Origin: a virus
Direction: 5' to 3' (one strand)
IMG/VR virus record: IMGVR_UViG_3300043775_003011
Location: 1-40,028 of that record
Length of the DNA: 40,028 nt
This document shows positions 1 to 14,202 of this stretch, piece after piece; the first letter of the stretch is position 1; every line of letters starts with the position of its first letter. The notes below the pieces were generated by a model. It was not told where the DNA came from. It searched no databases and saw nothing but the letters and a program-made list of their open reading frames with translations. A program made the translations under genes and the position numbers.

Positions 1-667
1 AACTAAATTCACCAAAAACTACTAAATCTGCTCTAGAATTCTTAGGAACTCCAGCAGGTTTAGCTCGATAAGACCAAATAACCTGGTCTATTCTCGTTTT
101 TATGCTTTCTTGTTTCAACCAATCGAAAATTGCATATGCGTTTTGCATTTTATCTTCAAATAAAGGAGAAGTTTCAAAAGATTCTATGTTTTTTCTAGCA
201 GCCTTATCGTCTCCACCTAATACACACTTACTTAAATCGTCGATAGATAGAACAAACTCTAACATTTCATTTGGATCGTTAGTTCCTTGATAATTATAAG
301 AAAATAAAACACAAGGAACTAATTCAGTGATAGTAGAATTTAACGTAGTTCCAGCTTGACCACCGATTGGTTTGTATATAAATAAGATTCGTTTTCCTTC
401 TATATAAAATTGAGTTTGAGGAAAAGTAGAAGCCGAAGAAGTTATTTCTTCTGGATTAAATCCTAATTTTTCTAATTCAGCTATAATAGATTTAGAACCA
501 GAAGCTCGATCCTTCAAATAAATATAGATTTTTTGAACTACTTTACCTTCAGTTTTTATTTTTGTACTTATTTTCTTTACGAAATCAAGTATGTCATTAA
601 AATCTTCAGAAGTTTGAGCTGCTTCATTAATCCATTCGGTAAACTCTTTATATTTTAGCATTCTCAT
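1..667 (-). CDS. Capsid-targeted protein of unknown function (3' end beyond window)
   Basis: An open frame runs from an ATG at 667 off the left edge without a stop, about 222 codons. It starts MRMLKYKEFTEWINEA; an internal Met three residues in gives MLKYKEFTEWINEA. This is a variant of the leader shared by the next genes and ends in I-N-E before Ala, the T4-type prohead protease pattern. The rest is a soluble mixed alpha/beta sequence that I do not recognise. The start lies a few bases after the stop of the gene at 669-1592, as expected for one operon. Confident as a gene; function unknown apart from likely packaging in the head. Confidence 0.8.
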   Translation of the reverse strand, partial: MRMLKYKEFTEWINEAAQTSEDFNDILDFVKKISTKIKTEGKVVQKIYIYLKDRASGSKSIIAELEKLGFNPEEITSSASTFPQTQFYIEGKRILFIYKPIGGQAGTTLNSTITELVPCVLFSYNYQGTNDPNEMLEFVLSIDDLSKCVLGGDDKAARKNIESFETSPLFEDKMQNAYAIFDWLKQESIKTRIDQVIWSYRAKPAGVPKNSRADLVVFGEFS

Positions 668-668
668 A

Positions 669-1592
669 TTAATTAAATAGTGTTGGGAATAATTGTTCTA
701 CTTCAGTTGGTACTGGCATTTTAGCTGATAATATATAAATTTTGAATCTATTTAGAATAGCATCTAAACGATCTTTGTGTATGAATTTAGGTGATGTTGT
801 TAATGCGAATGCATTTTCAAAAGTCATAACTTCAGCAGGTTTAACACCTTCACCGAAAGCAAATTTAACAACTTCTTCTGGTGTGCTGGTAATGAATTTG
901 TCTTGGTCATGTAAAAGAGAAGCAGTTTTAACTAATGCACCCTTTTTACCCATAAAAGTTTTTTCTACTTGATAGATTCCTTTCTCTAAACGAATAACAT
1001 ATTGTTTGTATTGTTCGGTTTCTCCGGTTTCAGTTTTCTTTGTAGTTTCTTTCATACATTCAGAAACTATCGACATTAAGAGTACATTTCTGTACATTCC
1101 TTTGTATTTTGATTCTGCAATTTTAAAGTTTGGAGAGTAGTACATGAAACGTGACCAATCTAAATTAGTAGAAAGCATAAAATCTACTTGAGCAGTTCCA
1201 TTGTTTTTCTTACCTGCTACAGGAACTCCAATAGATATCTGTTCAAATCCTTTCGCGGTTCTAGTTGAATATCCTTTTGATTTGAATGTGTCTTCTAAAA
1301 ATTGAAGTGCATCTTCCATAGATATTCCATTAACTCCAGCAATTTTATCTACTGAAACGGCAATATCGATATCACCACTAGTAATTTCATCAGCTTTCTT
1401 GCCATATGAACCAATAGGTGATGCATCAACTCCTTTACCTCCTAAACCAATTAGAGGAAATAAATTCTTTTCAACCCAATCATAAGTATCAATTACTTCT
1501 GGTTGTGTTAAAGGACGAGAATCCTCTATTGCATTTCCACTTTCATTTAAGAAGGTAGAAACAAAGTCTTTAAATTTTAGCATATTTCTCAT
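669..1592 (-). CDS. Capsid-targeted polymerase-beta-type nucleotidyltransferase
   Basis: 307 residues from the ATG at 1592, just after the stop of the upstream gene; a longer ORF start upstream overlaps that gene and is less likely. The leader MLKFKDFVSTFLNE ends in a predicted prohead cut site before Ser. Residues 61-76 (GSYGKK..., then SGDIDIAV) give the Gly-Ser plus D-x-D signature of the polymerase-beta nucleotidyltransferase fold, and VDFML near residue 137 supplies the usual third acidic residue. Such enzymes move NMP to proteins, nucleic acids or small molecules; the substrate cannot be read here. Context suggests it enters the cell with the DNA. Family call good, role inferred. Confidence 0.8.
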   Translation of the reverse strand: MRNMLKFKDFVSTFLNESGNAIEDSRPLTQPEVIDTYDWVEKNLFPLIGLGGKGVDASPIGSYGKKADEITSGDIDIAVSVDKIAGVNGISMEDALQFLEDTFKSKGYSTRTAKGFEQISIGVPVAGKKNNGTAQVDFMLSTNLDWSRFMYYSPNFKIAESKYKGMYRNVLLMSIVSECMKETTKKTETGETEQYKQYVIRLEKGIYQVEKTFMGKKGALVKTASLLHDQDKFITSTPEEVVKFAFGEGVKPAEVMTFENAFALTTSPKFIHKDRLDAILNRFKIYILSAKMPVPTEVEQLFPTLFN

Positions 1593-1593
1593 A

Positions 1594-1833
1594 TTATTCT
1601 TCTTCCTCACATTCGTAAGCTGGACCAATTCCTCTTATCGGCACTTTTAATTTTTTGCCAGTTTTATCGTCTACTACAATTAAATAATCACCTTTAACTT
1701 CAGCAACTTTTCCTGTATGATTTATATGAGTTCCAGGAACTATGTATTCGATGATGTTTCCAGGTCGAACATGCGAGTATGCTTCAGTAATAAATTCCTC
1801 ATAAGTAGGTAATTTTTTCATTCTATCTTTCAT
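1594..1833 (-). CDS. Small capsid-targeted protein, KOW/SH3-like
   Basis: 79 residues from an ATG at 1833 that overlaps the upstream stop as TAATG. A second Met gives MKKLPTYEEFITEA at 1821, which is exactly the shared leader, so the true start could be either. After the predicted cut at I-T-E the mature part is about 60 residues, with GKVAEVKGDYLIVVDDKTGKK, reminiscent of a small KOW or SH3-like beta barrel, and a very acidic C-terminus (EEEE). No catalytic motif is visible. Function unknown; internal head protein is the contextual guess. Confidence 0.75.
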   Translation of the reverse strand: MKDRMKKLPTYEEFITEAYSHVRPGNIIEYIVPGTHINHTGKVAEVKGDYLIVVDDKTGKKLKVPIRGIGPAYECEEEE

Positions 1834-2108
1834 TATTTTTCTACCTTAGTAACATTAACATTTAGATAATTCAAATCTACATCGATAGCTAAACTAACGT
1901 TTTTCTTTTTAGCCAAATCGTTGTCCGGCTTAATTGTAATTTCATCGGCAGATCTTCTTCTGCTGAAAAGTCCACTCATTCCAGAAGGTTTAATCACTTT
2001 CCAAGCTTCTCCGTCTTTAAAATGCACTATTGCATCTACTGGAAAATCTGTTATTTTAAAAGATTTAGCTTCATTTAAGAAGTTTTCGAATGTTGGTATG
2101 TTTTTCAT
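1833..2108 (-). CDS. Small capsid-targeted protein
   Basis: 91 residues beginning MKNIPTFENFLNEA, the canonical form of the leader in this region with an L-N-E site before Ala. The remaining 77 residues are basic in the middle (FSRRRS) and beta-rich at the end, and match nothing I recognise. It overlaps the next gene's start by one base, so the two are likely translationally coupled. Confidence 0.8.
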   Translation of the reverse strand: MKNIPTFENFLNEAKSFKITDFPVDAIVHFKDGEAWKVIKPSGMSGLFSRRRSADEITIKPDNDLAKKKNVSLAIDVDLNYLNVNVTKVEK

Positions 2109-2121
2109 AGTTTATTATTTT

Positions 2122-2379
2122 TTATTGTTGGAGATTTATTAAATCACATGTTTGATACAGATGTATTATTTGATTATATACTTCTAATTCATATAATTCG
2201 ATTTTAGCATCTTTTATAGCTTTAATTGCTTCTAATTTTTTACGCAAACTAAATACGCTTGATTGACCTCGTATAATTTCTATCTTATAATACATGGCAT
2301 CGTTATGTTCTATGTAATCAATAACGTTCAGTTTTGATAAAATAGTTACAATTTGTTCTTCGTTATTAACCGATTCCAT
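2122..2379 (-). CDS. Hypothetical protein without the leader
   Basis: 85 residues, one of the few genes in this cluster that lacks the leader. It is predicted mostly alpha-helical with a central basic/hydrophobic helix (RKKLEAIKAIKDAKIELYELEV). It sits between two leader-bearing genes with 4-13 base spacers, so it is co-transcribed with them. Function unknown; it may act in the cell or in assembly rather than as cargo. Confidence 0.65.
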   Translation of the reverse strand: MESVNNEEQIVTILSKLNVIDYIEHNDAMYYKIEIIRGQSSVFSLRKKLEAIKAIKDAKIELYELEVYNQIIHLYQTCDLINLQQ

Positions 2380-2383
2380 TAAT

Positions 2384-2791
2384 CTATTCCATAGTCATTG
2401 TACAATCATCCATTAGGCCACCTAAAGCCGTTTGTATTGCTGATTGAGATTCATTTGAATTAAAGGTAACTAATTTTGTGTAGTTTTCATGATGAGCATC
2501 AATCAAAAAATGGTTTTTTAGTACTTTGAGAACTTCTACTGCAACAGTAGGTGTATCACAATCAATTTCATAAGATTTATCTCTGGCTTCATTCATCGGC
2601 TTATTGATTTTACCTTTCTTTTCATGAAGAAGTCTTAATCTTTCTCGAAGGATTTCTTCTTGTTTTTCTCGGTTTTCTTCAGGTAAACCCTTTAGTTGCT
2701 TTTTAATTTCCTTAATCTTAGCTTGAATGTTGTCCATTAAAGACTCAGCAGATTCACCGATAAATTCTTCAAATGTAGGTAAGTTCTTCAT
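2384..2791 (-). CDS. Capsid-targeted coiled-coil protein
   Basis: 135 residues starting MKNLPTFEEFIGES, with I-G-E before Ser as predicted cut site. Residues about 20-60 form a strongly charged coiled coil rich in Glu, Lys and Gln (IKEIKKQLKGLPEENREKQ). A second possible site, P-M-N-E before Ala, follows at about residue 69 and would separate the coiled coil from a C-terminal alpha/beta part. A TATATTTG box lies just upstream of the start. The mix resembles T4 core or internal proteins in style but not in sequence. Confidence 0.8.
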   Translation of the reverse strand: MKNLPTFEEFIGESAESLMDNIQAKIKEIKKQLKGLPEENREKQEEILRERLRLLHEKKGKINKPMNEARDKSYEIDCDTPTVAVEVLKVLKNHFLIDAHHENYTKLVTFNSNESQSAIQTALGGLMDDCTMTME

Positions 2792-2807
2792 AGGTTAATT
2801 TGCTATA

Positions 2808-2815
2808 CAAATATA
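2808..2815 (-). promoter_or_regulatory. TATATTTG box, host-type -7 element
   Basis: Reads TATATTTG on the minus strand, about 17 bases before the ATG at 2791, matching the TAnnTTTG -7 element known from Bacteroidota promoters. I see no clear -33 TTTG. The same octamer occurs before three other starts in this window. Confidence 0.45.
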
Positions 2816-2850
2816 AAAAAAATTCTCGAAAGAAAAAAATTTATTTGAAA

Positions 2851-4563
2851 TTATTTTTTGTGATTTTCTTTCCAAATTCCTTGCAACCAATTGTGCAATT
2901 CTTTGTTATTGTCTTTCTTGCCAATACTATATTCTTTAACAAATTCCGCTTTAAATTCATCAAAAGTAGCAGCCTCTTCAGCCATAATATGAACATCACC
3001 CATAGAAGATTCAGCAATAAAAGTAGAAGATTCTTTGATATTGGTTTCCCAATAATCTTGAAGTTTTTCAAATTCTTTACGACCCATATTAGCAATCATG
3101 TACTCTATGATGTCATTGTCGTAATCATCGGCTTCATCTCTAAAACCTCCTGGAGTATCGATGTATTTGCTACCCATGATTCTTTTGATTCTAGATTCTG
3201 GCATACCGTCGATTTCTTCTAAGAACTCTTCAAAATCTTTAGTTGCTTTGAAAAATTGAGCTTCATTAACTGAAGATTCAACTAATTTCATATTATATGC
3301 ATTCGAAACATCAGTTTTAATTTTACCGGTTTCTTTTGAATGCAATTCCATAGTTTTACGATCTGAATTTAATTTGATGAATGTAACTATACCGTAGTCT
3401 GATGTGTATTGTTTCCCGGGTTTTAGATCAGTTGCTTTACCTTCATTAATTGAAGATTCTTTAATAATGGTAATATCTTTATCAGTAACACCATCTGGCT
3501 TACGTAATCCAATTAGTTCCCATTTATTATTTTTAACTTTAAAATAGCCAACTTTACCTGATAAAACATATATTTTAGTTGGGTCATTATCTTTAGGTAT
3601 TTCAGGAGTATTTGCTTCTTTCATTAATGCTAAAGCACCTAATTCACTTAATGTAACTTTTGCGCCTTTATCTTTACCATTATCAGAAGAATGGTATAAC
3701 AATCCAGCGTTAAACAGTCTTTTTAAAACTTCACCTTTAACTAAATCAAAGCTAATTGTATCGCTTACGTTATCCCATGAATCTACTACATATTCCGGTT
3801 CAATCCAACCATAACCTCTTTTAATGTTTTTAATCAAAGTTTCTACGTCTTTATCGAATTGCTTAGCAGCAGCTTCATTAAGAGTAGATTCTAGTACTTG
3901 AGTATTATCCTTGTTCCATTCACCTTTTTTAACAAATCCATGAACCATGAAATTTGCTCTTGTTAATCCGGTCGATTTTACTAACTTATCAATAGCTGCA
4001 TTTTCAACATTAACATTACTAGTTCCTTTAATGTACTTGAACTTATATGTCTTTTTCGATTTTGAATCTAGAACAATAAATCCATCGTAAAATTTAGTCA
4101 TATCACCTTCATTAAGAGTAGATTCAAAAGTAGCAGTAATTCCTTTGATTTTATATTTTTTAGATAATTCTCCTAATTCGGTATAAAGATCGTCTAATTC
4201 ATATTCAACTAAATGTTTATAACCTTTCTTTAAGTTAATATCCGTATTTCCGGATTTGGCCATGTAATCATCTTTACCTTCAGTAATAGAAGATTCTTTT
4301 AATCCAGAAAGAATTTTCTTAGCTTTGTCTAAATCTCTTTGAGTTTTAAAGATTAAGTTACCATCATCAGATACCTGAGGAAACGCATAATGTTGGTAAG
4401 GAATTCCTTTAAGTAATTTGTCTAAATATGGTGTTCTTAAATCCATATTAGCTGGCAAATCGTCGTAATTGATGCGATATTTCGTATCCCATAACTTTGC
4501 ATCCGGATCATTTAAGATGTCTTCGTTTATGAAATCTTCGTAATTTGGTATGTAATTTTTCAT
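2851..4563 (-). CDS. Capsid-targeted polyprotein with seven predicted prohead-protease sites
   Basis: 570 residues starting MKNYIPNYEDFINED. Besides the leader site (after residue 14) there are six internal sites set in near-identical linkers: ESSITE/G (95), ESTLNE/G (152), ESTLNE/A (230), ESSINE/G (374), ESSVNE/A (434) and STFIAE/S (518). Cutting at all would free segments of about 81, 57, 78, 144, 60, 84 and 52 residues, each with its own character; the 144-residue segment may include a winged-helix-like part. The linkers match the leader's own cut site and differ from the segments around them. No segment is recognised by family. It is probably a packaged multi-protein precursor; the number of cuts is inferred. 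Confidence 0.85.
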   Translation of the reverse strand: MKNYIPNYEDFINEDILNDPDAKLWDTKYRINYDDLPANMDLRTPYLDKLLKGIPYQHYAFPQVSDDGNLIFKTQRDLDKAKKILSGLKESSITEGKDDYMAKSGNTDINLKKGYKHLVEYELDDLYTELGELSKKYKIKGITATFESTLNEGDMTKFYDGFIVLDSKSKKTYKFKYIKGTSNVNVENAAIDKLVKSTGLTRANFMVHGFVKKGEWNKDNTQVLESTLNEAAAKQFDKDVETLIKNIKRGYGWIEPEYVVDSWDNVSDTISFDLVKGEVLKRLFNAGLLYHSSDNGKDKGAKVTLSELGALALMKEANTPEIPKDNDPTKIYVLSGKVGYFKVKNNKWELIGLRKPDGVTDKDITIIKESSINEGKATDLKPGKQYTSDYGIVTFIKLNSDRKTMELHSKETGKIKTDVSNAYNMKLVESSVNEAQFFKATKDFEEFLEEIDGMPESRIKRIMGSKYIDTPGGFRDEADDYDNDIIEYMIANMGRKEFEKLQDYWETNIKESSTFIAESSMGDVHIMAEEAATFDEFKAEFVKEYSIGKKDNNKELHNWLQGIWKENHKK

Positions 4564-4570
4564 TTGAGAT

Positions 4571-5152
4571 TTATGTTAGTTTTTTTCTTAATTCTTTATA
4601 AAATGGATGAACTGATTTAGGAGTTAAAATTTTAAATTCGGTTTCATTATCAGCAATAATGGCCTCTCTAACTTTAGTTCCTGAAGGACCACCTTCAACT
4701 CTACTGTCAACCATTGCAACCGAAAATTCATCAACAGGTACATCAGACTTTTCTGAAGTTAAATATGCAACTTGTCTTTCGTAATCTTTTTGTCGATCGG
4801 AACCACATCCTATTCCTATTGTATTAAATCCCTTTTCTTGAATAAATTTTACCATTTGAGGTATAACAGTCTTATTACCAAGAGGATACATAGCAAATTC
4901 TTGAATAAAATCAAATTCACCAGCAACTCGATGACCTATTTTGGTTAATAAGGCAACATCAAACGGCGATTTTTCATTCTTCGAGAATATTTGTAATGGA
5001 ATAACAGGACATCCGAATGCCTGAGAAGTTCTTCTTAGAGCTTCAATATGTCCATTATGGAATGGTTGAAATCTTCCAGGAAATATGCATACTCGTTTGC
5101 CATTTAGTGTAGCTTCAAATACAAAATCCTCAAATGTAGGTATATTCTTCAT
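4571..5152 (-). CDS. Capsid-targeted HIGH-family nucleotidylyltransferase (NMNAT/cytidylyltransferase-like)
   Basis: 193 residues from the ATG at 5152, three bases after the upstream stop; a start five codons earlier would overlap that gene. The leader is MKNIPTFEDFVFEA. After it comes PGRFQPFHNGHIEAL (residues 25-39) with the HNGH signature of the nucleotidylyltransferase superfamily, and later GPSGTKVREAI, the equivalent of the second nucleotide-binding motif (SxTxxR). Relatives adenylylate NMN, or cytidylylate or adenylylate other phosphates. NMN adenylyltransferase is plausible since T4-like phages such as KVP40 carry NAD-synthesis genes, but the substrate is not determined. A packaged NAD or cofactor enzyme would be notable. 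Confidence 0.85.
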   Translation of the reverse strand: MKNIPTFEDFVFEATLNGKRVCIFPGRFQPFHNGHIEALRRTSQAFGCPVIPLQIFSKNEKSPFDVALLTKIGHRVAGEFDFIQEFAMYPLGNKTVIPQMVKFIQEKGFNTIGIGCGSDRQKDYERQVAYLTSEKSDVPVDEFSVAMVDSRVEGGPSGTKVREAIIADNETEFKILTPKSVHPFYKELRKKLT

Positions 5153-5154
5153 AA

Positions 5155-5613
5155 TTATTTTCGGCAATCGCCTTCTTTTATTGCAAATTCTTGAGCAATA
5201 GATTTAATTGCTCTATCGTCAGTATTAGATATCGAAGTATGAAAGAATTTACTTCCATCTTCATTTTTAAATAAACCTTTTACGGATTTTCCCATCCAAG
5301 TCTTCCAAGGAAGAGAGTCTTTATAAGCATTAATTGCTTTATCTCCGGTTTTGATAGTAACCTTATTGTTGTTGTTTGCTGCAGCTACATATTTTTTAAC
5401 TTCAGCATAATTATCATCCATATAAGCATTAAAATACTTTACAAATTTCTTAGCATTCTCATTATCTTCGGCAGAAGATATGAATTTTTTCTCGATTATT
5501 GTGTAGAAAATAACATCAACAACATTCGTTATTGGTTGTATTTCTATTCTAATTGCTAAATCCGGTGACAAATTTTCATTAATAAAGTTATCAAACGAAG
5601 GTATATTTTTCAT
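5155..5613 (-). CDS. Capsid-targeted protein of unknown function
   Basis: 152 residues starting MKNIPSFDNFINEN with I-N-E as predicted cut site. The mature part has a beta-rich start and a helical middle (NAKKFVKYFNAYMDDNYAEVKKYVAA) and ends with a basic CRK. No family is recognised. It is separated by two bases from the nucleotidylyltransferase gene downstream. Confidence 0.8.
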   Translation of the reverse strand: MKNIPSFDNFINENLSPDLAIRIEIQPITNVVDVIFYTIIEKKFISSAEDNENAKKFVKYFNAYMDDNYAEVKKYVAAANNNNKVTIKTGDKAINAYKDSLPWKTWMGKSVKGLFKNEDGSKFFHTSISNTDDRAIKSIAQEFAIKEGDCRK

Positions 5614-5628
5614 CTATTGTGATTTTTA

Positions 5629-6399
5629 TTATCTTACGAATTTTTCGAATGTAGGAATATTAACACCTTCATTATAAGGAGTTCTAACATCGATTTTACC
5701 ACCTGAAAGAGCTTTGGCAACAGAACTAACTTGTTCTGGTTCAATCTTAGGCATTTCTTGTCTCGGTGGTGCACCAGCAGGAGGTCCAAATTTTTGTATC
5801 ATTTTAAGACCGGTTGCAACCGTTGCTTTGTTTTTTTCATACCAAGCAATTGCCTTTTCTTTATTAAAGAATTTAGGGTCCATGTTTTCTCCATCATATA
5901 TACAAGCTTCAACATCTTTCATTGTTGCATTAAAGATATTAACATCTCCACCTGTCGGAATTCCACCTCGTTCGTTACCTAATGCATCACCAGCTTGTCT
6001 TAAAACTGGAACTAAGTCACCAATTTTTAAATCCGCTTTAGCCCCAATAACTTTTGCATTTGGATTATTGAATATTGTAGCAGCCCATCTATGATGACCA
6101 TCTAATATTCTATTATCTGAAGATATTACTGCATCTAAATTACCGCCTTCAACTCCAGCAATTGCTAAACCTAAAGCTTTACCTAAATAAACTGCATCTT
6201 GAGAAGGTTTAAGAGATTTAGCCGGAATACCAACTTCTTTAGTAATTACAACGTCGTCATTTGCACTACCATCACGTTTACCGGCAGTAAAAAATCCTGG
6301 ATCGTTGTGATTTCCTGGATTTGGGAATTTTTTAGGATTGATTTCCTTAGTAGCTAAATCTTCGTTAATGAATTCGCTAAATGTAGGTATGTTTTTCAT
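5629..6399 (-). CDS. Capsid-targeted ParB/sulfiredoxin-fold protein with a C-terminal leader copy
   Basis: 256 residues starting MKNIPTFSEFINED. The motif SSDNRILDGHHRWAA (residues 93-107) is the signature loop of the ParB/sulfiredoxin fold, whose phage members can be nucleases or nucleotide-dependent enzymes. A central segment is unassigned and a Pro-rich linker (GPPAGAPPRQEMP) follows. The protein ends PYNE/GVNIPTFEKFVR: a second, near-perfect copy of the leader at the C-terminus, preceded by an NE/G cut-like site. This may be a C-terminal targeting tag, or the remains of a former downstream gene's leader fused in frame. Fold call fair, activity unknown. Confidence 0.8.
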   Translation of the reverse strand: MKNIPTFSEFINEDLATKEINPKKFPNPGNHNDPGFFTAGKRDGSANDDVVITKEVGIPAKSLKPSQDAVYLGKALGLAIAGVEGGNLDAVISSDNRILDGHHRWAATIFNNPNAKVIGAKADLKIGDLVPVLRQAGDALGNERGGIPTGGDVNIFNATMKDVEACIYDGENMDPKFFNKEKAIAWYEKNKATVATGLKMIQKFGPPAGAPPRQEMPKIEPEQVSSVAKALSGGKIDVRTPYNEGVNIPTFEKFVR

Positions 6400-6414
6400 A
6401 ATTTATATATTTGA

Positions 6415-7275
6415 TTAGTAACTCCAATTAGCAGCGATACTAACTTTAAGATTCCACTTTTTTGCAAAGTTTTCCATTAAGTCGTATATCTTAGAACTTA
6501 ACATCGAGTACTTTTGATATTCTTTTGATGACGTAGTATCTCCACCATATTCATTTTCATGACGATATTGTCTAGGTTCATCTATTCTCATTCTAACTTC
6601 TTTGTGTCTTAATTCTAATCTAGGCTCATTACAGGTAATTCCTAATTTTTTAGCATTATTCCACATTTCGTCGAATATAGGAGATATTTTAGATTTAACT
6701 TTTTTCCAATCGTTTTCAATCTTAAGTCTTTCTGCAATTATTTTCTTTGCAGTTTTAGGATTGAAATATTCACCATTTTTCTTTTCGTATGCATCAAAAA
6801 TGCTTACAATGTCTTGTAGAACTTCATTATGCTTAGATATTGCTTTATAAGTTCCATAGATTACACTTCCAGTTTCTAACATATCTCCGTCAGGATGTCT
6901 GATACCGGCAAAATAATGTCCGAATTGATAAGAAGGAGTTCGAGTACTATCAGCAGAAGAATATTGAAAAGGTCCATCTGCATAAGTAGCTCTACTCATA
7001 CCTTTCACTGCAATAACTACTACAAGATTACCACCGTAGTTCCAATCCGAACGATAAACATATACGTCTAGAGGAACTTTAAGGTTTTTGCTAAGAAATT
7101 TAACAGCGTCGACTCCTTTATTGAAGTTAGAACCTGGTTCATCTATATTTTTAACAGCTTTTAAGAAGTTAGCAGGAGACATCGGCTCCATTGAATTAAA
7201 TAGAGGTTTGTTAGTTTTTTCTGCATAAAGCATATCTTCGTTAACGAAGTCTTCGAATTTAGGTATGTTTATCAT
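6415..7275 (-). CDS. Capsid-targeted protein of unknown function
   Basis: 286 residues starting MINIPKFEDFVNED with V-N-E as predicted cut site. The mature protein has an alpha/beta N-terminal half (LDVYVYRSDWNYGGNLVVVIAVKG) and a long helical, charged C-terminal half with many His, Arg and Trp residues. I recognise no family. The start is 4 bases from the upstream stop at 7279. Confidence 0.8.
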   Translation of the reverse strand: MINIPKFEDFVNEDMLYAEKTNKPLFNSMEPMSPANFLKAVKNIDEPGSNFNKGVDAVKFLSKNLKVPLDVYVYRSDWNYGGNLVVVIAVKGMSRATYADGPFQYSSADSTRTPSYQFGHYFAGIRHPDGDMLETGSVIYGTYKAISKHNEVLQDIVSIFDAYEKKNGEYFNPKTAKKIIAERLKIENDWKKVKSKISPIFDEMWNNAKKLGITCNEPRLELRHKEVRMRIDEPRQYRHENEYGGDTTSSKEYQKYSMLSSKIYDLMENFAKKWNLKVSIAANWSY

Positions 7276-7278
7276 AGT

Positions 7279-7944
7279 TTATGTATTCATTATATTTTCT
7301 AGATCTCTAGCAAGGCCTGTATTAAATTGAAATTTACTACATTTAAGACCAATAGTACTATAATTAGTACCTGATGTTTCATCAAATGAAACTCCTCCAT
7401 CATTAGAACAATATTCATCTAATACGAAAAATAAAGGATATAATTCAGATTTGATTTTATCAGCAATTGATGAAGATATTCCACCACCAATTTTAACTGC
7501 TATCAAGAAATTATTTTGTCCATCAGGTCTGAAATTACATTCACCTCTAATAAATCCACTGACTGTAGATCTAGCAGTACCTGACCAGCCTGCAGCAGCT
7601 CCAACCGAAGTAGCTTCAACTTCGTATTTTTTGTATTTTTTAATAACTTTAGATATTCTTTTAGCTAATTCGGTAGCATTTGAAGATTTGAAAATTTCAT
7701 AATCATCAGAAGGATCAGATCCTTGAACCATAATAGGATTTTTCCAATCTAATTTAACATCTTTTGTACTAATTTTGTGCTCTAATCTTTCAATTTGATC
7801 GGTATAAACTTTATGAGTCCATCCTTTTATTTCTACTGCTTGCTTAGCAATAACTAATTTATCTTTAAGTTTATTAATAATTCCTTTAGGACTAAAATCA
7901 ACAGATTCATTAACAAAATTTTCAAATAACGGTATATTTTTCAT
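7279..7944 (-). CDS. Capsid-targeted protein of unknown function
   Basis: 221 residues starting MKNIPLFENFVNES. After the V-N-E/S site comes a basic helical stretch (INKLKDKLVIAKQAVEIKGW), then a domain with Gly-rich turns (SVGAAAGWSGTARSTVSGF) and a beta-rich end. No catalytic signature that I can name. It is part of the same closely spaced operon. Confidence 0.8.
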   Translation of the reverse strand: MKNIPLFENFVNESVDFSPKGIINKLKDKLVIAKQAVEIKGWTHKVYTDQIERLEHKISTKDVKLDWKNPIMVQGSDPSDDYEIFKSSNATELAKRISKVIKKYKKYEVEATSVGAAAGWSGTARSTVSGFIRGECNFRPDGQNNFLIAVKIGGGISSSIADKIKSELYPLFFVLDEYCSNDGGVSFDETSGTNYSTIGLKCSKFQFNTGLARDLENIMNT

Positions 7945-7956
7945 ATGATTTATGTT

Positions 7957-8304
7957 TTAATATTCAAATGGAGGTGTTCCATATTCAGATTTTTTAACGG
8001 CAAACCAATTTCTATCGATTTTAAAGTACCACCAACCACGAGAAGAATCTATGATATAGTGCTCTCCTTTAATAGCGTATGTTTTATAACCGCCTCTAGT
8101 AAAAAATTTAGTTACAGGTGAACCATCTGGCCAAGTTTTGTCAGTAGATTGAGCATGTATTGATTTACCATCAAAGGTTGCTAGAAAAATATCTGCAACC
8201 ATTCCATCGGCTCTTTCTTCTCCGGCAAATTCTTTAACTCCCGGTAGCATCGCTTCAACTGCTTCATTAATGAATTCGTCAAAAGTAGGTATATGATTTT
8301 CCAT
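7957..8304 (-). CDS. Small capsid-targeted protein
   Basis: 115 residues starting MENHIPTFDEFINEA, with I-N-E before Ala. The mature part of about 100 residues is rich in aromatic residues and Gly (SSRGWWYFKIDRNWFAVKK), suggesting a small beta-rich domain. Function unknown. Confidence 0.8.
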   Translation of the reverse strand: MENHIPTFDEFINEAVEAMLPGVKEFAGEERADGMVADIFLATFDGKSIHAQSTDKTWPDGSPVTKFFTRGGYKTYAIKGEHYIIDSSRGWWYFKIDRNWFAVKKSEYGTPPFEY

Positions 8305-8309
8305 TTTTA

Positions 8310-8702
8310 TTATATTGTTTTTACTAAACGCACTGAATATGCTTGGCTTCCACTAGTAAAATACTCTTGTTTTCCTGTGCCGAAGTTTTGTACCCAGACT
8401 GCATTTTTACCAAATGTTTCAGACGACATATAAAATGCGTTCATTCTAAGATTAGGTAATACATCAACATTTTTATACATCTCTTCTAATTCAATTCTAG
8501 TTGGTAATCTCCAGTCTTTGCCCATTTTTTTGGCTAACCGATTTGCATTAACCAATTTAAGATCTGCGCCGTTAAGTTCGGTTAAGTCGCGTTCTGCAAC
8601 TTCTATGTTACCAATTGTAACTGGTGTTCCTATTACATCCGATGATGTATATAATCCAGCGACCTCGTTTACGAAGTCTTCAAAAGTTGGTATGTTTTTC
8701 AT
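8310..8702 (-). CDS. Capsid-targeted DUF1566-like protein
   Basis: 130 residues from the ATG at 8702, chosen because it gives the standard leader MKNIPTFEDFVNE before Val; a longer ORF start at 8741 runs into the upstream gene. The mature part contains WRLPTRIELEEMY, an FYMSSE strand and a final SYSVRLV-type ending (here AYSVRLVKTI), the pattern of DUF1566 (Lcl C-terminal-like) domains, which are found in surface and phage proteins and are thought to be binding modules. Family call by motif pattern; role unknown. Confidence 0.8.
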   Translation of the reverse strand: MKNIPTFEDFVNEVAGLYTSSDVIGTPVTIGNIEVAERDLTELNGADLKLVNANRLAKKMGKDWRLPTRIELEEMYKNVDVLPNLRMNAFYMSSETFGKNAVWVQNFGTGKQEYFTSGSQAYSVRLVKTI

Positions 8703-8716
8703 TTTTTGTTTATATT

Positions 8717-9502
8717 TTATGAATAAGCTTCGATGTCCCATTGAATTCTTTCTAATGGAGTTTCATCATAACAAATATTTTTCTTAACCCAATCAAGTAA
8801 ACCTGGTTCGAACTTAGCATTTTGTGCCATATCATAAGCATTATCTGCTCCACCATTACCTGACATATCCTTAATCCATTTATCGTATGCCTTTTTATTC
8901 CATGAATGGGCTTTCTGTTTCTTTGCATGAGGCCCATTACCTAAAGTAGAGAAAACTGCCATAGATGAATTAGGAACAAATACATCAACAGAACCTTCAG
9001 TACCTGATTTACCATTGCCATATTTAATTTCTCTTCTAAATTTTGCTAATGCATAATCAGCAGATGCTATTTGAGATGAGCTAGACATTGCTCCGGTTTT
9101 TTTACCGTAAGCTTTTTTAAGTTGTAATTGTTTATTTGGATCAGTTTCAAAGTGAATATCTCGGATATAATCCTCAAACCATCCTTCATTTAAAGTAGAT
9201 TCCATAAGGTTACCACCACCATCAATTCCAGCACTATGCCAATATTCGCCTTTACCGTTATATGTTTGTACAAAGGCTACATATTCTTTAGTTTTAGGAT
9301 TCCAATAATGAGTTTTACCACCAGGTTCTTTCATTGATTTTAAAATTCCATTTCTAGCATTACTAATCAATGTGGCATTAACTTTAGGAGTTAGCGGTTC
9401 TCTGACAGTTAATTTATCAATAGAAGCTGAGGCTAAAGCTTCATTAGTAGAAGTTAATTTCGATTCGTTAACGAAATTCTCAAATGTAGGTATATTTTTC
9501 AT
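8717..9502 (-). CDS. Capsid-targeted protein with an internal cut site
   Basis: 261 residues starting MKNIPTFENFVNES. Further sites follow at TSTNE/A (residue 21) and MESTLNE/G (residue 106); the latter is the same linker as in the polyprotein at 2851-4563. Cutting would give an 85-residue piece (WNPKTKEYVAFVQTYNGKGEYW) and a 155-residue piece rich in Lys, Ser and Gly. Neither piece is recognised. The start overlaps the upstream stop as TAATG. Confidence 0.8.
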   Translation of the reverse strand: MKNIPTFENFVNESKLTSTNEALASASIDKLTVREPLTPKVNATLISNARNGILKSMKEPGGKTHYWNPKTKEYVAFVQTYNGKGEYWHSAGIDGGGNLMESTLNEGWFEDYIRDIHFETDPNKQLQLKKAYGKKTGAMSSSSQIASADYALAKFRREIKYGNGKSGTEGSVDVFVPNSSMAVFSTLGNGPHAKKQKAHSWNKKAYDKWIKDMSGNGGADNAYDMAQNAKFEPGLLDWVKKNICYDETPLERIQWDIEAYS

Positions 9503-9618
9503 TATGATTCTTTAGTCAATCTACTAATAATTTCTTGGTTATTAGCGATACGTTTTTTGTTTTTAAGTTGGTTACCTCTATTAGGTTTTGGTTTACCTTC
9601 TTTTTTAGATTTTGACAT
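9502..9618 (-). CDS. Very small basic protein
   Basis: 38 residues, from an ATG inside the end of the 9605-9883 gene to a TAA that overlaps the next ATG. It starts MSKSKKEGKPKPNRGNQ and is strongly basic, so it may bind nucleic acid. Both junctions overlap by a few bases, the spacing seen throughout the operon, which supports it as a real gene despite its size. Function unknown. Confidence 0.5.
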   Translation of the reverse strand: MSKSKKEGKPKPNRGNQLKNKKRIANNQEIISRLTKES

Positions 9619-9883
9619 TGTGTTTGATTATTTTGAGTCGAACATCAGATGTTCCTTGTATAATTCTATGTATCTCACCGCATTTGATGAATATTTCTTG
9701 ATTAAGTGAAATAGGCAATTGATTATCAAATTGAAACTGCCAATCCGTAGAATCTATCGCTTGAACGGTTCGATCTTGTTCATCCCAGTGCCATTTGAAT
9801 TCTTCAGGATGAGTGTCAGCACTAAATGTTCTTATAAAAACATTATCTCCTAAATCATCTTCTATAAAAGGCAATTCTACCAT
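9605..9883 (-). CDS. Cupin-like small protein
   Basis: 92 residues without the leader. The pattern EFKWHWDEQDRTV, then WQFQFDNQLP, then GEIHRIIQG, with His and acidic residues spaced through short beta strands, resembles a single-domain cupin, but I cannot name a subfamily or prove metal binding. Its start codon overlaps the stop of the displaced gene end at 9877-9933 (ATGGTAG), so it was originally coupled to the gene now at 10539. Confidence 0.65.
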   Translation of the reverse strand: MVELPFIEDDLGDNVFIRTFSADTHPEEFKWHWDEQDRTVQAIDSTDWQFQFDNQLPISLNQEIFIKCGEIHRIIQGTSDVRLKIIKHNVKI

Positions 9884-9933
9884 GGATTGTCAGATGAAAG
9901 TCCTAATTGTTTAGTAAAAAGTGAAGGAGCATA
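9877..9933 (-). pseudogene. Displaced 3' end of the gene at 10539-11084
   Basis: Eighteen codons plus TAG read YAPSLFTKQLGLSSDNPW, matching the C-terminus of the gene at 10539-11084 (YGPSLFSKQLGLQSDMPW) at 14 of 18 positions, though the DNA differs at many third positions. It starts at the stop codon of the GIY-YIG gene between the two copies. It is the leftover original end of the invaded gene, still overlapping the start of the next gene. Confidence 0.8.
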
Positions 9934-9935
9934 GG

Positions 9936-10499
9936 TTATGCATCGTTTAATTTTTTCTGTTCCCATGTAGATTTAATTTTATCTTTAGTTTCTTGTTTCA
10001 TTGGTCTTTTAGCACCTTCAGCAATTTTATCTTTAGTAGATTGTATTTTTTCTTGCGGTAAATAATCTTCATACTTCATGCCTTTAAATTTACAAGGTTT
10101 ATTACCTTTTCTACTTTTTGCACGCTCAGATAAATTTTTTCTATGTTCTTCAGTGAATATCCTTTTTTTACCGGAAGTAGAAAGTTTTTCCTTTATTAAT
10201 GACATCTCCTCGTTTGATTTATTAGCATAAGTATTACCGCCTAAAGCTGAATCTTTTTTATTATAGCTCATAGGATTATTAGAGATTTTGAATATTTTTA
10301 AGAATTTATCTTCAAAGGTATAAGCTTCTTCTCGAGTATTAAATCTTTTTAATATTTCAAATTTGAAATTTTCTTTGCCGTATTTTTTTCTGGCAAATGA
10401 TAAAGCACTTCCACTACCTTCATATTTTTCTTTACTACCTGAACCATAATAAAATTTACCATTTATTAAATTGGTTATCTTATAAAAATAATTTTCCAT
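9936..10499 (-). CDS. Free-standing GIY-YIG homing endonuclease
   Basis: 187 residues. The N-terminus MENYFYKITNLINGKFYYGSG is a GIY-YIG catalytic domain; a conserved Arg and Glu follow in KRFNTREEAYTFEDKF. The C-terminal half has NUMOD3-like DNA-binding repeats (TEEHRKNLSERAKSRKG and a second copy near the end). It is flanked by two copies of one gene end (10539 side intact, 9877-9933 displaced), the footprint of a mobile gene. A GATATATAAA box lies 11 bases upstream. Family call is strong; the cleavage site is unknown, presumably in the empty-site allele of the neighbouring gene. Confidence 0.9.
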   Translation of the reverse strand: MENYFYKITNLINGKFYYGSGSKEKYEGSGSALSFARKKYGKENFKFEILKRFNTREEAYTFEDKFLKIFKISNNPMSYNKKDSALGGNTYANKSNEEMSLIKEKLSTSGKKRIFTEEHRKNLSERAKSRKGNKPCKFKGMKYEDYLPQEKIQSTKDKIAEGAKRPMKQETKDKIKSTWEQKKLNDA

Positions 10500-10509
10500 T
10501 ATGTTTTAT

Positions 10510-10519
10510 TTTATATATC
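10510..10519 (-). promoter_or_regulatory. GATATATAAA box, late-promoter candidate
   Basis: Reads GATATATAAA followed by ATAAAAC on the minus strand, 11 bases before the GIY-YIG start at 10499. It resembles the T4 late promoter TATAAATA. All three GIY-YIG genes carry the same box. Confidence 0.5.
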
Positions 10520-10538
10520 AAGTTAGTGCGTAACAAAA

Positions 10539-11084
10539 CTACCAAGGCATATCACTTTGTAATCCTAGCTGTTTCGAGAATAGGCTCGGCCCGTAGCACG
10601 CCCAGAACCCTTTTTTCGAAGGATCCATTTTCTTTTGTAAATCACATTGCTGTCTAGCCCAAAAAGATGAAGCAGCTCCTTCATCGGCATTATCAATTGC
10701 ACGATTTGGATCTCCCCATTCTATTTTAGTAGCAATGATATTTCCATCATCATCCTTCTTACCACTATTGTGATAAACTTGATATTTTTGTTCTCCACCT
10801 CTTTGTGGTGTGTCTAATTTAACATCAATCCATGCATCATTATCGGTTTTGAATTTAGCCTTTTTACCTACCTCTAGGTTCTTTGCCATCCAAGCTGATT
10901 TGCCGTTAAGGATGATGTTTCCTTTATCCCAATATTCTTTAGTTTCCTCAAATAAATCATCATAAGCTTGTGAACCTAAACGAAATACTGAAGTACTTAA
11001 ATCTAGGCCATTTGCTTGGTGATATTTGAAAGCTTCTGAAGCGTTTTCACGAATGAAATCTTCGAATTCTGGTATGTTTTTCAT
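10539..11084 (-). CDS. Capsid-targeted protein with a replaced, GC-rich 3' end
   Basis: 181 residues from the ATG at 11084, giving the leader MKNIPEFEDFIREN; the longer ORF start at 11147 overlaps the upstream gene. The C-terminal part (ARQQCDLQKKM...GFWACYGPSLF...GLQSDMPW) has two Cys and an aromatic ending that look like a compact conserved phage domain, but I cannot name it. The last ~60 bases (10560-10620) are over half G+C by my count, unlike the AT-rich surroundings, and encode almost the same residues as the displaced end at 9877-9933. The end was probably imported together with the neighbouring endonuclease. Confidence 0.8.
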   Translation of the reverse strand: MKNIPEFEDFIRENASEAFKYHQANGLDLSTSVFRLGSQAYDDLFEETKEYWDKGNIILNGKSAWMAKNLEVGKKAKFKTDNDAWIDVKLDTPQRGGEQKYQVYHNSGKKDDDGNIIATKIEWGDPNRAIDNADEGAASSFWARQQCDLQKKMDPSKKGFWACYGPSLFSKQLGLQSDMPW

Positions 11085-11085
11085 A

Positions 11086-11442
11086 TTATCTTGTACGAGT
11101 GGAAGGAGTTCCTTTATATTCTGCTTGATATATCGATCTAAGTTCATTCCACATAGTTTGATATTTAGCCGGAATTTTATCAGTTGAATATAAACGAGAA
11201 CGAGAGTTTTTACCTAAAGATTCTGGTTTGTAATTAGGTCCGCTATAATATTCCATAAATTCTTTACCAGTATTAGGTCCTTTAACGTAAATTCCATAAG
11301 TGATTAAAGAATCACGATCTAAGTGTCCTTCCAAAATATCGCAATCTGGATTGTGGTCTGTGTGTGAGTTGAAGTTTAAATCATACCATTTAGTGGTATT
11401 AGATTCATTTACAAATGCTTCGAATGTAGGTAAGTTTTTCAT
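11086..11442 (-). CDS. Small capsid-targeted protein
   Basis: 118 residues starting MKNLPTFEAFVNES. The mature part is rich in Asn, Asp, His and Tyr (NSHTDHNPDCD, then MEYYSGPNYKPES) and ends basic (TPSTRTR). No family recognised. It ends two bases before the next leader start. Confidence 0.75.
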   Translation of the reverse strand: MKNLPTFEAFVNESNTTKWYDLNFNSHTDHNPDCDILEGHLDRDSLITYGIYVKGPNTGKEFMEYYSGPNYKPESLGKNSRSRLYSTDKIPAKYQTMWNELRSIYQAEYKGTPSTRTR

Positions 11443-11457
11443 ATTGTTAGTTTTTTA

Positions 11458-11511
11458 TTATATTGCAATTCCACTGAACCAAATAGAGATCCAAAGTATT
11501 AATTTTTTCAT
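11458..11511 (-). CDS. Possible 17-residue hydrophobic peptide
   Basis: ATG at 11511 to TAA at 11458 gives MKKLILWISIWFSGIAI. It is 22 bases downstream of a TATATTTG box and directly upstream of the leader gene at 11086. It could be a real membrane peptide or only part of a leader transcript; length alone cannot decide. Confidence 0.25.
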   Translation of the reverse strand: MKKLILWISIWFSGIAI

Positions 11512-11532
11512 ATCGATTGTATTTTTATATTA

Positions 11533-11540
11533 CAAATATA
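11533..11540 (-). promoter_or_regulatory. TATATTTG box, host-type -7 element
   Basis: Reads TATATTTG on the minus strand in the largest gene-poor gap of the cluster (11443-11675). It would drive the genes from 11511 leftward. No convincing -33 element is visible. Confidence 0.45.
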
Positions 11541-11564
11541 AACATAATTCCTGATACTATGAAA

Positions 11565-11663
11565 TTATTTTAAATCTTTTTTAAATTCATCGTATATCGT
11601 GAGTATTAAAAATAAGCCTATTATTCCAGCAAAGAAAGGTAGGCAATTAAGTTCAGAGTTCAC
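11565..11663 (-). CDS. Possible small single-span membrane protein
   Basis: A 32-residue frame with a GTG start 12 bases after the stop of the gene at 11676: roughly MNSELNCLPFFAGIIGLFLILTIY..., one hydrophobic span followed by a charged tail (DEFKKDLK). No ATG is available in frame. Charge after the span and position support a small membrane protein, but there is no independent evidence. Confidence 0.35.
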   Translation of the reverse strand: MNSELNCLPFFAGIIGLFLILTIYDEFKKDLK

Positions 11664-11675
11664 TGCATCAAATGA

Positions 11676-12176
11676 TTATTTTATTGCAGTTTTGATTAGA
11701 TCTTCAATTACTGAACTAAAGTCTCCTTTAGGAGTTACTCTAAGTGGTTTCTTATCTGACACAATATCCTTATTAATCCATTTAAAATGATCGGCATCTA
11801 CTAAGAACTTAGCAATTTCAGTAGAAATTTTCTTTGAATTAGATTCAAATTCTTTAACATTAAGAGGATAATTTTTTCCAAATGTAGAAGAAGGCTCTTT
11901 CTTAAGCGAATTAGTTGTTCCTATTTTTACATAACCTGTACCATCAGGCCATACACTAACTGAAAACATTACAACATTACGTTCATTTGGATTAACATCA
12001 TTATCCGAATCTACAAATAAGTTTGAGTTAATTTTAAACGTAGTGTTACCGGTTTCTTTAGCATCTCGATAAATACCCCAAGTAGATTTGTCTTCATCAA
12101 ACATATCAGGTGTTAAAATAACTTTTACGGCTGCAGCTTCATTTAAGAAGTCTTCAAAAGTAGGTATGTGTCTCAT
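11676..12176 (-). CDS. Capsid-targeted protein of unknown function
   Basis: 166 residues starting MRHIPTFEDFLNEA, with L-N-E before Ala. The mature part is predicted mostly beta with an Asp/Asn-rich loop (DSDNDVNPNER) and a helical end (FSSVIEDLIKTAIK). Not recognised. Its His at position 3 is shared with the next two genes (MKHIPTFE), which suggests that these three leaders descend from one another. Confidence 0.8.
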   Translation of the reverse strand: MRHIPTFEDFLNEAAAVKVILTPDMFDEDKSTWGIYRDAKETGNTTFKINSNLFVDSDNDVNPNERNVVMFSVSVWPDGTGYVKIGTTNSLKKEPSSTFGKNYPLNVKEFESNSKKISTEIAKFLVDADHFKWINKDIVSDKKPLRVTPKGDFSSVIEDLIKTAIK

Positions 12177-12178
12177 AA

Positions 12179-12523
12179 TTATCTTTGTTTTCCTTTTGTT
12201 ACTTGACCCATTTGAATAGCCTTTTCAATTTGATCGTATAATTCTTCGGCATTTTTAATATCCTTTGTAGGAATTTCAAATTCTCCTTTTTTGCAAAGAA
12301 GGACATAATATTCTCCGTTGTTGGTTATATTAAAATACTCATCTCCTGTCATAAATGGAATTTTCTTTCCTCTAACAGAACCAGAGCCTATTTCAATTGT
12401 TCCTTTAGAAGAATTTAATAATTTAGCCACCTTGTCAAGAATTTTATCATCCGTGGTTTTAACACCTTCTGGATATTCTATCTTTTCGTTAACGAATTCT
12501 TCGAATGTAGGTATATGTTTCAT
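12179..12523 (-). CDS. Small capsid-targeted protein
   Basis: 114 residues starting MKHIPTFEEFVNEK; V-N-E before Lys is a less typical flanking residue. The mature part has a helix, then a beta-rich region (GEYYVLLCKKGEFEIP) and a C-terminal helix ending in basic residues. Function unknown. Confidence 0.75.
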   Translation of the reverse strand: MKHIPTFEEFVNEKIEYPEGVKTTDDKILDKVAKLLNSSKGTIEIGSGSVRGKKIPFMTGDEYFNITNNGEYYVLLCKKGEFEIPTKDIKNAEELYDQIEKAIQMGQVTKGKQR

Positions 12524-12530
12524 TTTTTAA

Positions 12531-12905
12531 TTATTTTTTATTTACTCTTTCTAGGTAAATTATAGATGCATTTTTAATTTTACTTATAAAATCATCAAAC
12601 GTATAATTACCCTTTTCGATATTAACTTTTAATCTTTTTTTCCCTTTGTCATTAATTAAAATACAAAGTTCGTTTTTCAAAATATTAATATCAAAATGAT
12701 CGTATGGAAATTTAAAATTTTTATTTAATTCTAACCCTATACCAACTGTTGCTTTAGGCATGTCTGATAAGCCTATATTATAGATTTTCGTTTCTATACC
12801 TAAAGGGATTGATACTTTATTTTTTAATTGTTCAAATCCTTTAAATATACCTTTAGTTAAAATCTCTTCATTTAAGAAGTCTTCAAAAGTAGGTATATGT
12901 TTCAT
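12531..12905 (-). CDS. Small capsid-targeted protein
   Basis: 124 residues starting MKHIPTFEDFLNEE. The mature part is Lys- and Ile-rich with alternating beta strands (KKRLKVNIEKGNYTFDDF). No recognised family. Eight bases separate it from the neighbour on each side. Confidence 0.75.
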   Translation of the reverse strand: MKHIPTFEDFLNEEILTKGIFKGFEQLKNKVSIPLGIETKIYNIGLSDMPKATVGIGLELNKNFKFPYDHFDINILKNELCILINDKGKKRLKVNIEKGNYTFDDFISKIKNASIIYLERVNKK

Positions 12906-12912
12906 TGTTTAA

Positions 12913-14202
12913 TTATTTTTTATATGCTACCATTGAACGAATTTGATGAATTGCCATAAAAATTCCAGTGTACTTGTAAAGCTTACCTTTAAATAAGAAA
13001 GTAATTCCTTCGGTAGGAACGATTGATTCTAGGCCACCAGCCGCAGTAACTCGTCTAAGTTCATGTTCTAGTTTCTCGATATCTTTCTCGTCGCCATCAA
13101 CTCTAATTTTTGATATTGCCGCCTCTACTTCCTTTTTCATAATCATGGCAGCTTCAGTAGGATTTGCTACTAATGTTGATGTGATATTTTTCATCATTTC
13201 CGTTCCTATTTCTAAGAAGATATTTTCAAGAGGAGCATAAACTTCTCGCTTCCAAACTTTCGCCTTTTTCTTTTCTAATTCAATAAACCAATTTGCATTA
13301 TCGCCTAAGTCCTTTTTGATTTGTCCTACTGAGTAAGATTTATCAATATCGGCAAGTCTTCTAGCTAATCCATCTAATGAATTTTCCGGCAAAATAATCT
13401 TAGCATCATTAGCTTCTCTCATTATAATCTTTTTTCCCATTCCTAAAGCATAATCACCAACCGTAGATGTTTGAGTACAACTAGAATCTGACATTACCCG
13501 AGATAATTTATCAGCATAGTATTTAGCTCTCGCTTTAGTATTAGGCAAACGAAATGAAGCTATATCTTCAGGACCTCTTACAAAGAAAGTTTCTTGTGCT
13601 GCAGCATTTGCTTCGGCTATTAATTTACCTAAATCTCTACCTGCTTGTTTATCTTCACCTACAACATTTCCATTATTATCATATTCGACAACTCCATGAA
13701 ACACTAACATATTTTGGCCATAAGGCACAGTATTTTGTGTTACCGGCGTGATGATTTCTACCGATGCAAATTTTTGTCCTTCATTAAAAAACTTAAGTTT
13801 GTCTTTCTCAGATAAAGAACTTATAGAAGCAGTAAGATCTTTCATTGCTGCATTAAACGCAATTTCTATATCACCTCTACCTACAAAAAGTTCGGCAATC
13901 GATTTAGAGTTTAACGCGTTTTCACCGAAGTTTTTAAGGTGTGATTTGTTTCTAGCTGCAATCAATTGACCATTCTTCCATGAAATAGAAAGTTGTTGAC
14001 CATCAGTTTTAGTTTGTACAAAGTTTTCTGGACCGAATGCTCCATTAACGGTAGTTTGTAGCATTTCTTCTAAATCCAAAAAGGTCAACCCGATATCCTC
14101 AAAAGGATGTGCGAGATGACCATAGGCACCACCTTCATTGAGAGGTACATTAATGGATTCGTTCAATTTCTTAACGAAATCTGTAAATTTAAGTAGTTTC
14201 AT
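12913..14202 (-). CDS. Capsid-targeted ligase-like covalent nucleotidyltransferase
   Basis: 429 residues, the rightmost member of the main leader cluster. It starts MKLLKFTDFVKKLNE/S, and a second site VPLNE/G follows at residue 23. K65-T-D-G68, with LIAARNKS downstream, fits motif I (KxDG) and the following Arg of covalent nucleotidyltransferases; FASVEIITP...LVFHGVVEYD fits motif III, and EGITFLFKGKLYKYTG (398-413) fits motifs IV and V. This is the core of ATP-dependent DNA or RNA ligases. The 200-residue helical insert between motifs III and IV is unusual. It could seal or repair injected DNA or host RNA; which one is not decided. A late-promoter-like box lies 23 bases upstream. Confidence 0.75.
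   Translation of the reverse strand: MKLLKFTDFVKKLNESINVPLNEGGAYGHLAHPFEDIGLTFLDLEEMLQTTVNGAFGPENFVQTKTDGQQLSISWKNGQLIAARNKSHLKNFGENALNSKSIAELFVGRGDIEIAFNAAMKDLTASISSLSEKDKLKFFNEGQKFASVEIITPVTQNTVPYGQNMLVFHGVVEYDNNGNVVGEDKQAGRDLGKLIAEANAAAQETFFVRGPEDIASFRLPNTKARAKYYADKLSRVMSDSSCTQTSTVGDYALGMGKKIIMREANDAKIILPENSLDGLARRLADIDKSYSVGQIKKDLGDNANWFIELEKKKAKVWKREVYAPLENIFLEIGTEMMKNITSTLVANPTEAAMIMKKEVEAAISKIRVDGDEKDIEKLEHELRRVTAAGGLESIVPTEGITFLFKGKLYKYTGIFMAIHQIRSMVAYKK

Follow-up and report, generated by a model that had tools for sequence, protein, structure and literature searches.

The first 14,202 positions of the virus fragment IMGVR_UViG_3300043775_003011, analysed here as a 40,028-base IMG/VR record (the window), hold an array of genes whose products share a short N-terminal leader. 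This leader is very probably a capsid-targeting sequence of the T4 type that is removed by a prohead protease, and the same motif joins exchangeable modules of the cargo proteins. The aromatic residues of the leader ([FY]xxF) would bind the precursors to the prohead scaffold core, and a gp21-family (S77) protease would cut after [LIV]-x-E, mostly [LIV]-N-E. The mature cargo would stay in the head and enter the cell along with the DNA. The phages, apparently a family of uncultured giant T4-like viruses, would have expanded the T4-type system until each genome has tens of such genes, with the cut-type motif also joining protein modules. Cargo may then shift between stand-alone and multi-module leader genes, and the protease may separate the modules of multi-module cargo inside the prohead.

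Extent and statistics of the leader

All 23 genes in 1-14202 lie on the minus strand, and 20 of them have the leader; those at 2122-2379, 9605-9883 and 9936-10499 (a GIY-YIG gene) are free of it. A strict leader core, defined as [FYW]..[FWY], 0-3 residues and [LIV]NE within the first 40 residues, is found in 15 genes of the window, where shuffled proteins would give 0.15. The matches of a window-against-window BLAST comparison span only the leader, and the bodies are mutually unrelated. The original prediction, made from the letters of the window, was that nearly every gene of 1-14202 shares a leader and that the sequences after it differ; both parts are borne out. The leader also ranges beyond this array, with a copy on 20203-20502, a weak one at 25523-25762 and an internal one in 16150-16923. 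Three members (2-667, 669-1592 and 12913-14202) have a variant leader such as MLKFKDFVSTFLNE.

Relatives were obtained by scanning viral contigs with the leader pattern, which gave 17 stretches; short back-translated peptides of the 12913-14202 protein found none in these contigs. A looser leader scan gave at least 118 stretches. Of 107 further loci inspected, 53 contain at least three leader-like genes; locus L088, for instance, has 13 in 14.8 kb. The 294-kb relative G008 is collinear with the window over 165129-181513, with a median identity of 91.6% for full-length orthologues. Its leader genes, about 50 in number, form several clusters. Together with the arrays at further loci, these bear out the predicted unusually large and varied protein set. 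The strict core occurs in 47 genes of G008 (0.60 expected), 34 of G004 (0.30), 22 of G007 (0.30) and 19 of G014 (0.35). On a seven-residue profile, 19 window genes and 49 of the 437 G008 genes exceed a score reached by no shuffled protein.

The capsid protein of the relatives puts the group near the huge phage LR756500, Lak, PAU and the Tenacibaculum phages. No clear leader excess was found in the head regions of PTm1 and Lak, and no nucleotide match for the first 25 kb of the window was found among annotated phages. The search for a named host gave one genome-contig match only, a single hit to a bin of an uncultured Clostridium, from which no host is assigned.

The most constant feature of the leader is the cut motif. 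In a non-circular check on 176 proteins picked by residues 1-10 alone, P3 is I, V or L in 163, P2 is N in 115 and P1 is E in 145. Where P1 is not E, an E follows 1-3 residues later in about half of the proteins. S and A are the commonest residues at P1'. A second cut-type site within 14 residues of the first occurs in 41 of 202 leader proteins, compared with 10.4 expected.

Correspondence with the T4 capsid-targeting sequence

The internal proteins IPI-IPIII and Alt of T4 start with a similar short leader, which contains two aromatics and [LI]-x-E and in T4 is cut by gp21. The leader core [FY]xxF[LIV]xE matches the capsid-targeting sequence of IPII and IPIII (start MKTYQEFIAE), whose core YQEFIAE scores 13.3 on the leader profile, beyond any shuffled G008 protein. 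Residues 4 and 7 of T4 IPIII matter for targeting, and residues 8 and 10 for processing (PMC9026906); they align with the four conserved leader positions. The leader of L016, MKTYEEFINE, is nearly identical to the T4 sequence.

Protease, scaffold and capsid

A gp21-family (Peptidase S77) protease is encoded in 7 of 14 relative contigs, including the collinear G008, and six of these exceed the family cut-off. In all four inspected cases the protease is fused to a scaffold-like half. The G008 protein (L040 5208-7121) is such a single fused protein, whereas protease and scaffold are separate in T4 (gp21, gp22) and PAU (gp151, gp152). The fused proteins contain 32-34 [LIV]xE sites per approximately 635 residues, several of them conserved as [LIV]NE[ST]. 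Directly behind the protease domain is a conserved VNE[SA]; LNES and [IV]NE[ST] are found close to the C-terminus. Portal-like, capsid and leader genes adjoin the protease in G008, the portal being named by sequence and position only.

The capsid protein of the relatives is homologous to gp23-type capsids and keeps HELYE-N, which aligns by eye with ALME-N of Sphingomonas (Sphingobacterium) phage PAU. Mature PAU capsid protein comprises 520 of 585 residues according to N-terminal sequencing (PMC5646251), and its end falls within one residue of an L-x-E site. The relatives resemble T4 in the gp21-family protease, the gp23-like capsid and a scaffold with the same site type. The protease and major capsid protein that the original prediction advised seeking are found in these relatives, and scaffold and capsid share the [LIV]xE-type motif. 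The predicted T4-type leader with gp21-like cutting is well supported, albeit indirectly, by the T4 match, the key residues, the S77 protease and head genes, and the common site type.

PAU has a related gp23-like capsid and protease, and also its own leader family of the type MK[ST][LI][ST]xLYExKLNE on at least four genes (gp133, gp142, gp143 and gp154). Two of these, gp142 (MKSLTNLYENKLNE then A) and gp154 (MKTISKLYEAKLNE then A), are annotated as internal capsid proteins. PAU differs in its leader sequence, in the small number of leader genes and in its separate protease and scaffold genes. In L077, the PAU locus, members of this leader family lie at 11031-11696, 16051-16796 and 23313-23735.

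Modules and cut-type joints

Modules that stand alone behind a leader reappear inside longer proteins. In the first joint test, 26 of 57 joints lay near a cut motif, compared with 6.9 at random. A body-only test used queries stripped of the leader and four more residues, which prevents leader-driven alignments; here [LIV][NDTSAQ]E was present at 57 of 87 joints, against 16.0 at random and a maximum of 29 in 2000 trials. The clearest exchange at the DNA level involves the C-module of G007 36071-36748 and the stand-alone gene G008 237613-238020, which are 93.9% identical over 375 bp and occupy different genome places. The identity begins at AATGAATCT, the codons for N-E-S. The median protein identity of G007/G008 orthologues is 68%.

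The 570-residue protein of 2851-4563 is a candidate cargo polyprotein. Inside it lie six motifs that follow the pattern ES-x-x-x-E-[GAS] or come close to it, namely ESSITE-G, ESTLNE-G, ESTLNE-A, ESSINE-G, ESSVNE-A and TFIAE-S, and its modules are found singly or within other proteins of L001, L006, G007, G014, L107 and L119. The two modules of 8717-9502 meet at a MESTLNE-G joint and are recombined otherwise in G008, G007, L010 and L112. The module of 669-1592 follows another module at an FVNE-G joint in G007, and the PF01467 domain of 4571-5152 is fused to other modules in relatives.

Some cargo genes may encode polyproteins that are cut within the head. The balance tips slightly towards a double use of the prohead protease site as a cargo-assembly joint: one leader would target a polyprotein, prohead cutting would release several proteins, and modules would be swapped between genes and genomes where recombination falls on the cut-site codons. 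A possible but doubtful alternative is that gene fusion left the internal [LIV]NE motifs behind, as remnants of former leaders that are now read through, and that they stay uncut in multi-module proteins. Such relics do exist. The protein of 5629-6399 ends in one (NEGVNIPTFEKFVR), and in G008 it forms one protein with its neighbour 5155-5613, which supplies the C-terminal part. One L121 protein keeps a whole internal leader, KHVKLFEAFVNEK, and the bodies overall are little enriched in sites. Against this, most joints retain only a short motif of the type ES-x-x-[LIV]NE-[GA] and have lost the remainder of the leader, a pattern that selection on the cut site alone would produce.

Cargo proteins

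Known domains are present in few of the 122 leader proteins scanned. They comprise RimK ATP-grasp, cytidylyltransferase or nicotinamide mononucleotide (NMN) adenylyltransferase, KTSC, DUF5824 and PAP2. Weaker matches are to a ParB-like domain and to one internal head protein family, and an ART-PolyVal-like (ADP-ribosyltransferase-like) match in one leader gene falls short of the family cut-off. Matches to the NCBIfam model of cysteine methyltransferases of the NleE family occur in three leader proteins, with a best E of 8.9e-7; such a domain is unusual for a phage head protein. A PADLOC search for defence-system homologues gave weak, scattered matches only.

The most widely conserved cargo is the protein of 12913-14202, which extends to LR756500 at 31% identity with the leader retained. 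Its invariant motifs (KxDG, EGIxF-type and KxYKxTG-type) are presumably those of covalent nucleotidyltransferases. The best fold matches of its predicted structure, to T4 RNA ligase 2, are weak, and given the low confidence (predicted local distance difference test score, pLDDT, 63.6) they are only suggestive beside the conserved motifs. In Microcystis phage Mel-JY01 the homologue lies inside a longer protein annotated as cytidylyltransferase-like, and a 915-residue protein of LR756508 matches both 12913-14202 and 4571-5152. The protein of 669-1592, a polymerase-beta-type nucleotidyltransferase with a GS..SGDIDI motif, has a predicted structure of moderate quality with weak fold matches to Cid1 and Pol beta/mu; no match in the structure search reached E<=0.001.

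A leader-less enzyme of the NAPRTase family (NAMPT-like) is encoded at approximately 79-81 kb of G008 (L187 1348-2883). It and the NMN-adenylyltransferase-like protein of 4571-5152 could rebuild NAD+ in infection, with one enzyme pre-packaged.

Many leader proteins might instead be core or scaffold helpers that are degraded or retained in the head and are not delivered to the host as effectors. Leader genes also adjoin scaffold, capsid and portal genes, and the T4 core proteins gp67 and gp68 are mostly lost from the mature head (PMC9026906). This is nevertheless unlikely, as the cargo includes enzyme-like proteins without an obvious scaffold role (NMN adenylyltransferase-like, RimK ATP-grasp, ADP-ribosyltransferase-like, nucleotidyltransferase and ligase-like), and its content differs even among close relatives.

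Points against the capsid-targeting interpretation

Several observations weigh against the leader as a cut head-targeting signal and against cutting at the joints. The window, a fragment, contains neither a protease nor a capsid gene, and no virion proteomics for this phage group was found. A cut after LME would give PAU capsid protein a mature length that differs by one residue from the one reported, and the PAU 'internal capsid protein' labels come from annotation. Yersinia phage YerA41, of which the virion proteome was measured, has the homologue of the leader-bearing ATP-grasp protein among its listed structural proteins; this virion-associated homologue has no leader, which means that the leader is not the sole route to the head. 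Part of the 87 joints are non-independent, as they come from near-identical contigs. The density of [LIV][NT]E in leader-protein bodies is little above that in other proteins, a weak enrichment, and the case for internal cutting therefore rests on position.

The leader might also address the proteins elsewhere, to the host membrane or a phage-made compartment, and remain uncut. It is N-terminal, as such an address would be, and its cleavage in this group is a prediction. This is very unlikely, because the leader has no long hydrophobic stretch of the signal-peptide kind and its core matches the T4 capsid-targeting sequence. In addition, the leader has a protease-site pattern in common with the scaffold: E at P1, [LIV] at P3 and, in most cases, S or A at P1'.

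Leader DNA and the spread of leaders

At leader positions with the same residue, codon identity in the window is 0.626, against 0.593 expected from genome codon usage, and values elsewhere are similar. This indicates conservation of the protein sequence and not of the DNA. Four pairs of near-identical leaders whose bodies are unrelated occur in five genomes, compared with approximately 0.55 expected; one is in the window (11676/12531), two are in G004 and one is in G007. The leaders of 11676-12176 and 12531-12905 are identical at 37 of 39 DNA positions, while their bodies are unrelated. Leaders therefore appear to be mostly old and kept by protein-level selection, with occasional recent copying, and spread by recent DNA copying is rejected as a general rule. 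The original prediction took the number and the DNA similarity of the leaders to suggest that a leader spreads by shuffling onto new genes; the argument from DNA similarity mostly fails, and the shuffling itself stands in another form, with modules joined at internal cut-type sites. Within one array of L088, the leader genes 7543-7932 and 8658-9050 are identical in their first 30 residues, apparently through recent tandem copying.

Isoleucine at leader position 4 is encoded by ATA in 12 of 12 window leaders, well above codon usage, possibly reflecting weak 5' mRNA structure, and relatives favour AAA at leader codon 2. These codons would suit a translational or regulatory 5' DNA or RNA element in place of a protein signal, which is extremely improbable in view of whole-leader codon identity at the level of genome usage and of the motif at internal protein joints, distant from start codons.

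Leader genes of the window

The leader genes, all on the minus strand, begin with 2-667, whose 3' end is cut by the window edge; its leader is MRMLKYKEFTEWINE then A, and its body matches phrog_2496 (unknown function). It is followed by the nucleotidyltransferase gene 669-1592 (MRNMLKFKDFVSTFLNE then S), 1594-1821 (MKKLPTYEEFITE then A), 1833-2108 (MKNIPTFENFLNE then A), 2384-2791 (MKNLPTFEEFIGE then S) and the candidate polyprotein gene 2851-4563 (MKNYIPNYEDFINE then D). The gene 4571-5152 (MKNIPTFEDFVFE then A) encodes a cytidylyltransferase/NMN-adenylyltransferase-like domain (Pfam PF01467), and 5155-5613 has MKNIPSFDNFINE then N. In 5629-6399, MKNIPTFSEFINE then D precedes a weak phrog_2859 match with a ParB-like stretch.

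Further along are 6415-7275 (MINIPKFEDFVNE then D), 7279-7944 (MKNIPLFENFVNE then S), 7957-8304 (MENHIPTFDEFINE then A), 8310-8702 with an Lcl_C domain (PF07603; MKNIPTFEDFVNE then V) and the two-module gene 8717-9502 (MKNIPTFENFVNE then S). The gene 10539-11084 (MKNIPEFEDFIRE then N) is conserved in relatives. The array is completed by 11086-11442 (MKNLPTFEAFVNE then S), 11676-12176 (MRHIPTFEDFLNE then A), 12179-12523 (MKHIPTFEEFVNE then K), 12531-12905 (MKHIPTFEDFLNE then E) and 12913-14202, in which MKLLKFTDFVKKLNE is followed by SINVPLNE and then G.

Outside the array, likewise on the minus strand, 20203-20502 has MELVNLPTFEEFLFE then S, and 25523-25762 is a weak candidate with MSFKKFFQFILE then K. 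The minus-strand reading frame 16150-16923 has the internal leader-like stretch KLHESFDEFINE then A, and its G008 homologue begins near there (MNNKLHESFDEFVNE). The window also contains three GIY-YIG homing endonuclease-like genes, at 9936-10499, 16932-17648 and 34996-35766. The first of these sits within the leader array and has no protein match in the compared relatives.

Relation to known systems and significance

A T4-type leader has already been proposed for loading varied proteins in T4-like phages (PMC9026906). The system described here probably works like the T4 internal proteins, and exceeds them in number, in the protease-scaffold fusion and in its modular cargo. Leader genes number tens per genome, compared with a handful in T4, N is preferred at P2, and multi-module cargo has internal cut-type joints and module exchange. 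The cargo is nearly all different. Among the handful of leader-bearing internal proteins of T4, only IPI and Alt have clear jobs.

Giant phages of the SPN3US/phiKZ type offer a parallel in their many head proteins, some of them ejected; head maturation there depends on gp245, a prohead protease that cuts after glutamate and prefers serine at P1' (PMC10052503). SPN3US differs in its A-x-E motif, whose 14 sites are spread over nine proteins and belong mostly to long propeptides. Approximately 80% of its head proteins are uncut, and they have no common short leader. The A-x-E motif does not recur here, given I, V or L at P3 in 163 of 176 proteins. Polyvalent proteins of phages and conjugative elements are arrays of unrelated domains that are predicted to be injected with the DNA (PMC5512222). 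The ART-PolyVal-like domain of one leader gene recalls them. Polyvalent proteins are multi-domain single polypeptides without a common leader, while the cargo here is mostly in separate genes or linked by prohead-protease-type joints.

In one genome the leader marks approximately 50 proteins as candidates for the head, and the relatives together have hundreds, nearly all without known domains. Since it marks them by sequence alone, it allows a direct listing of what giant phages probably inject. The listed candidates are a rich hunting ground for anti-defence and take-over factors, and leaders such as MKNIPTFEDFVNES are candidate tags to load proteins into phage heads. Cut-site joints would explain how this toolkit is assembled and exchanged; if they act in this manner, these phages possess a plug-in system for a large, fast-changing set of injected proteins.

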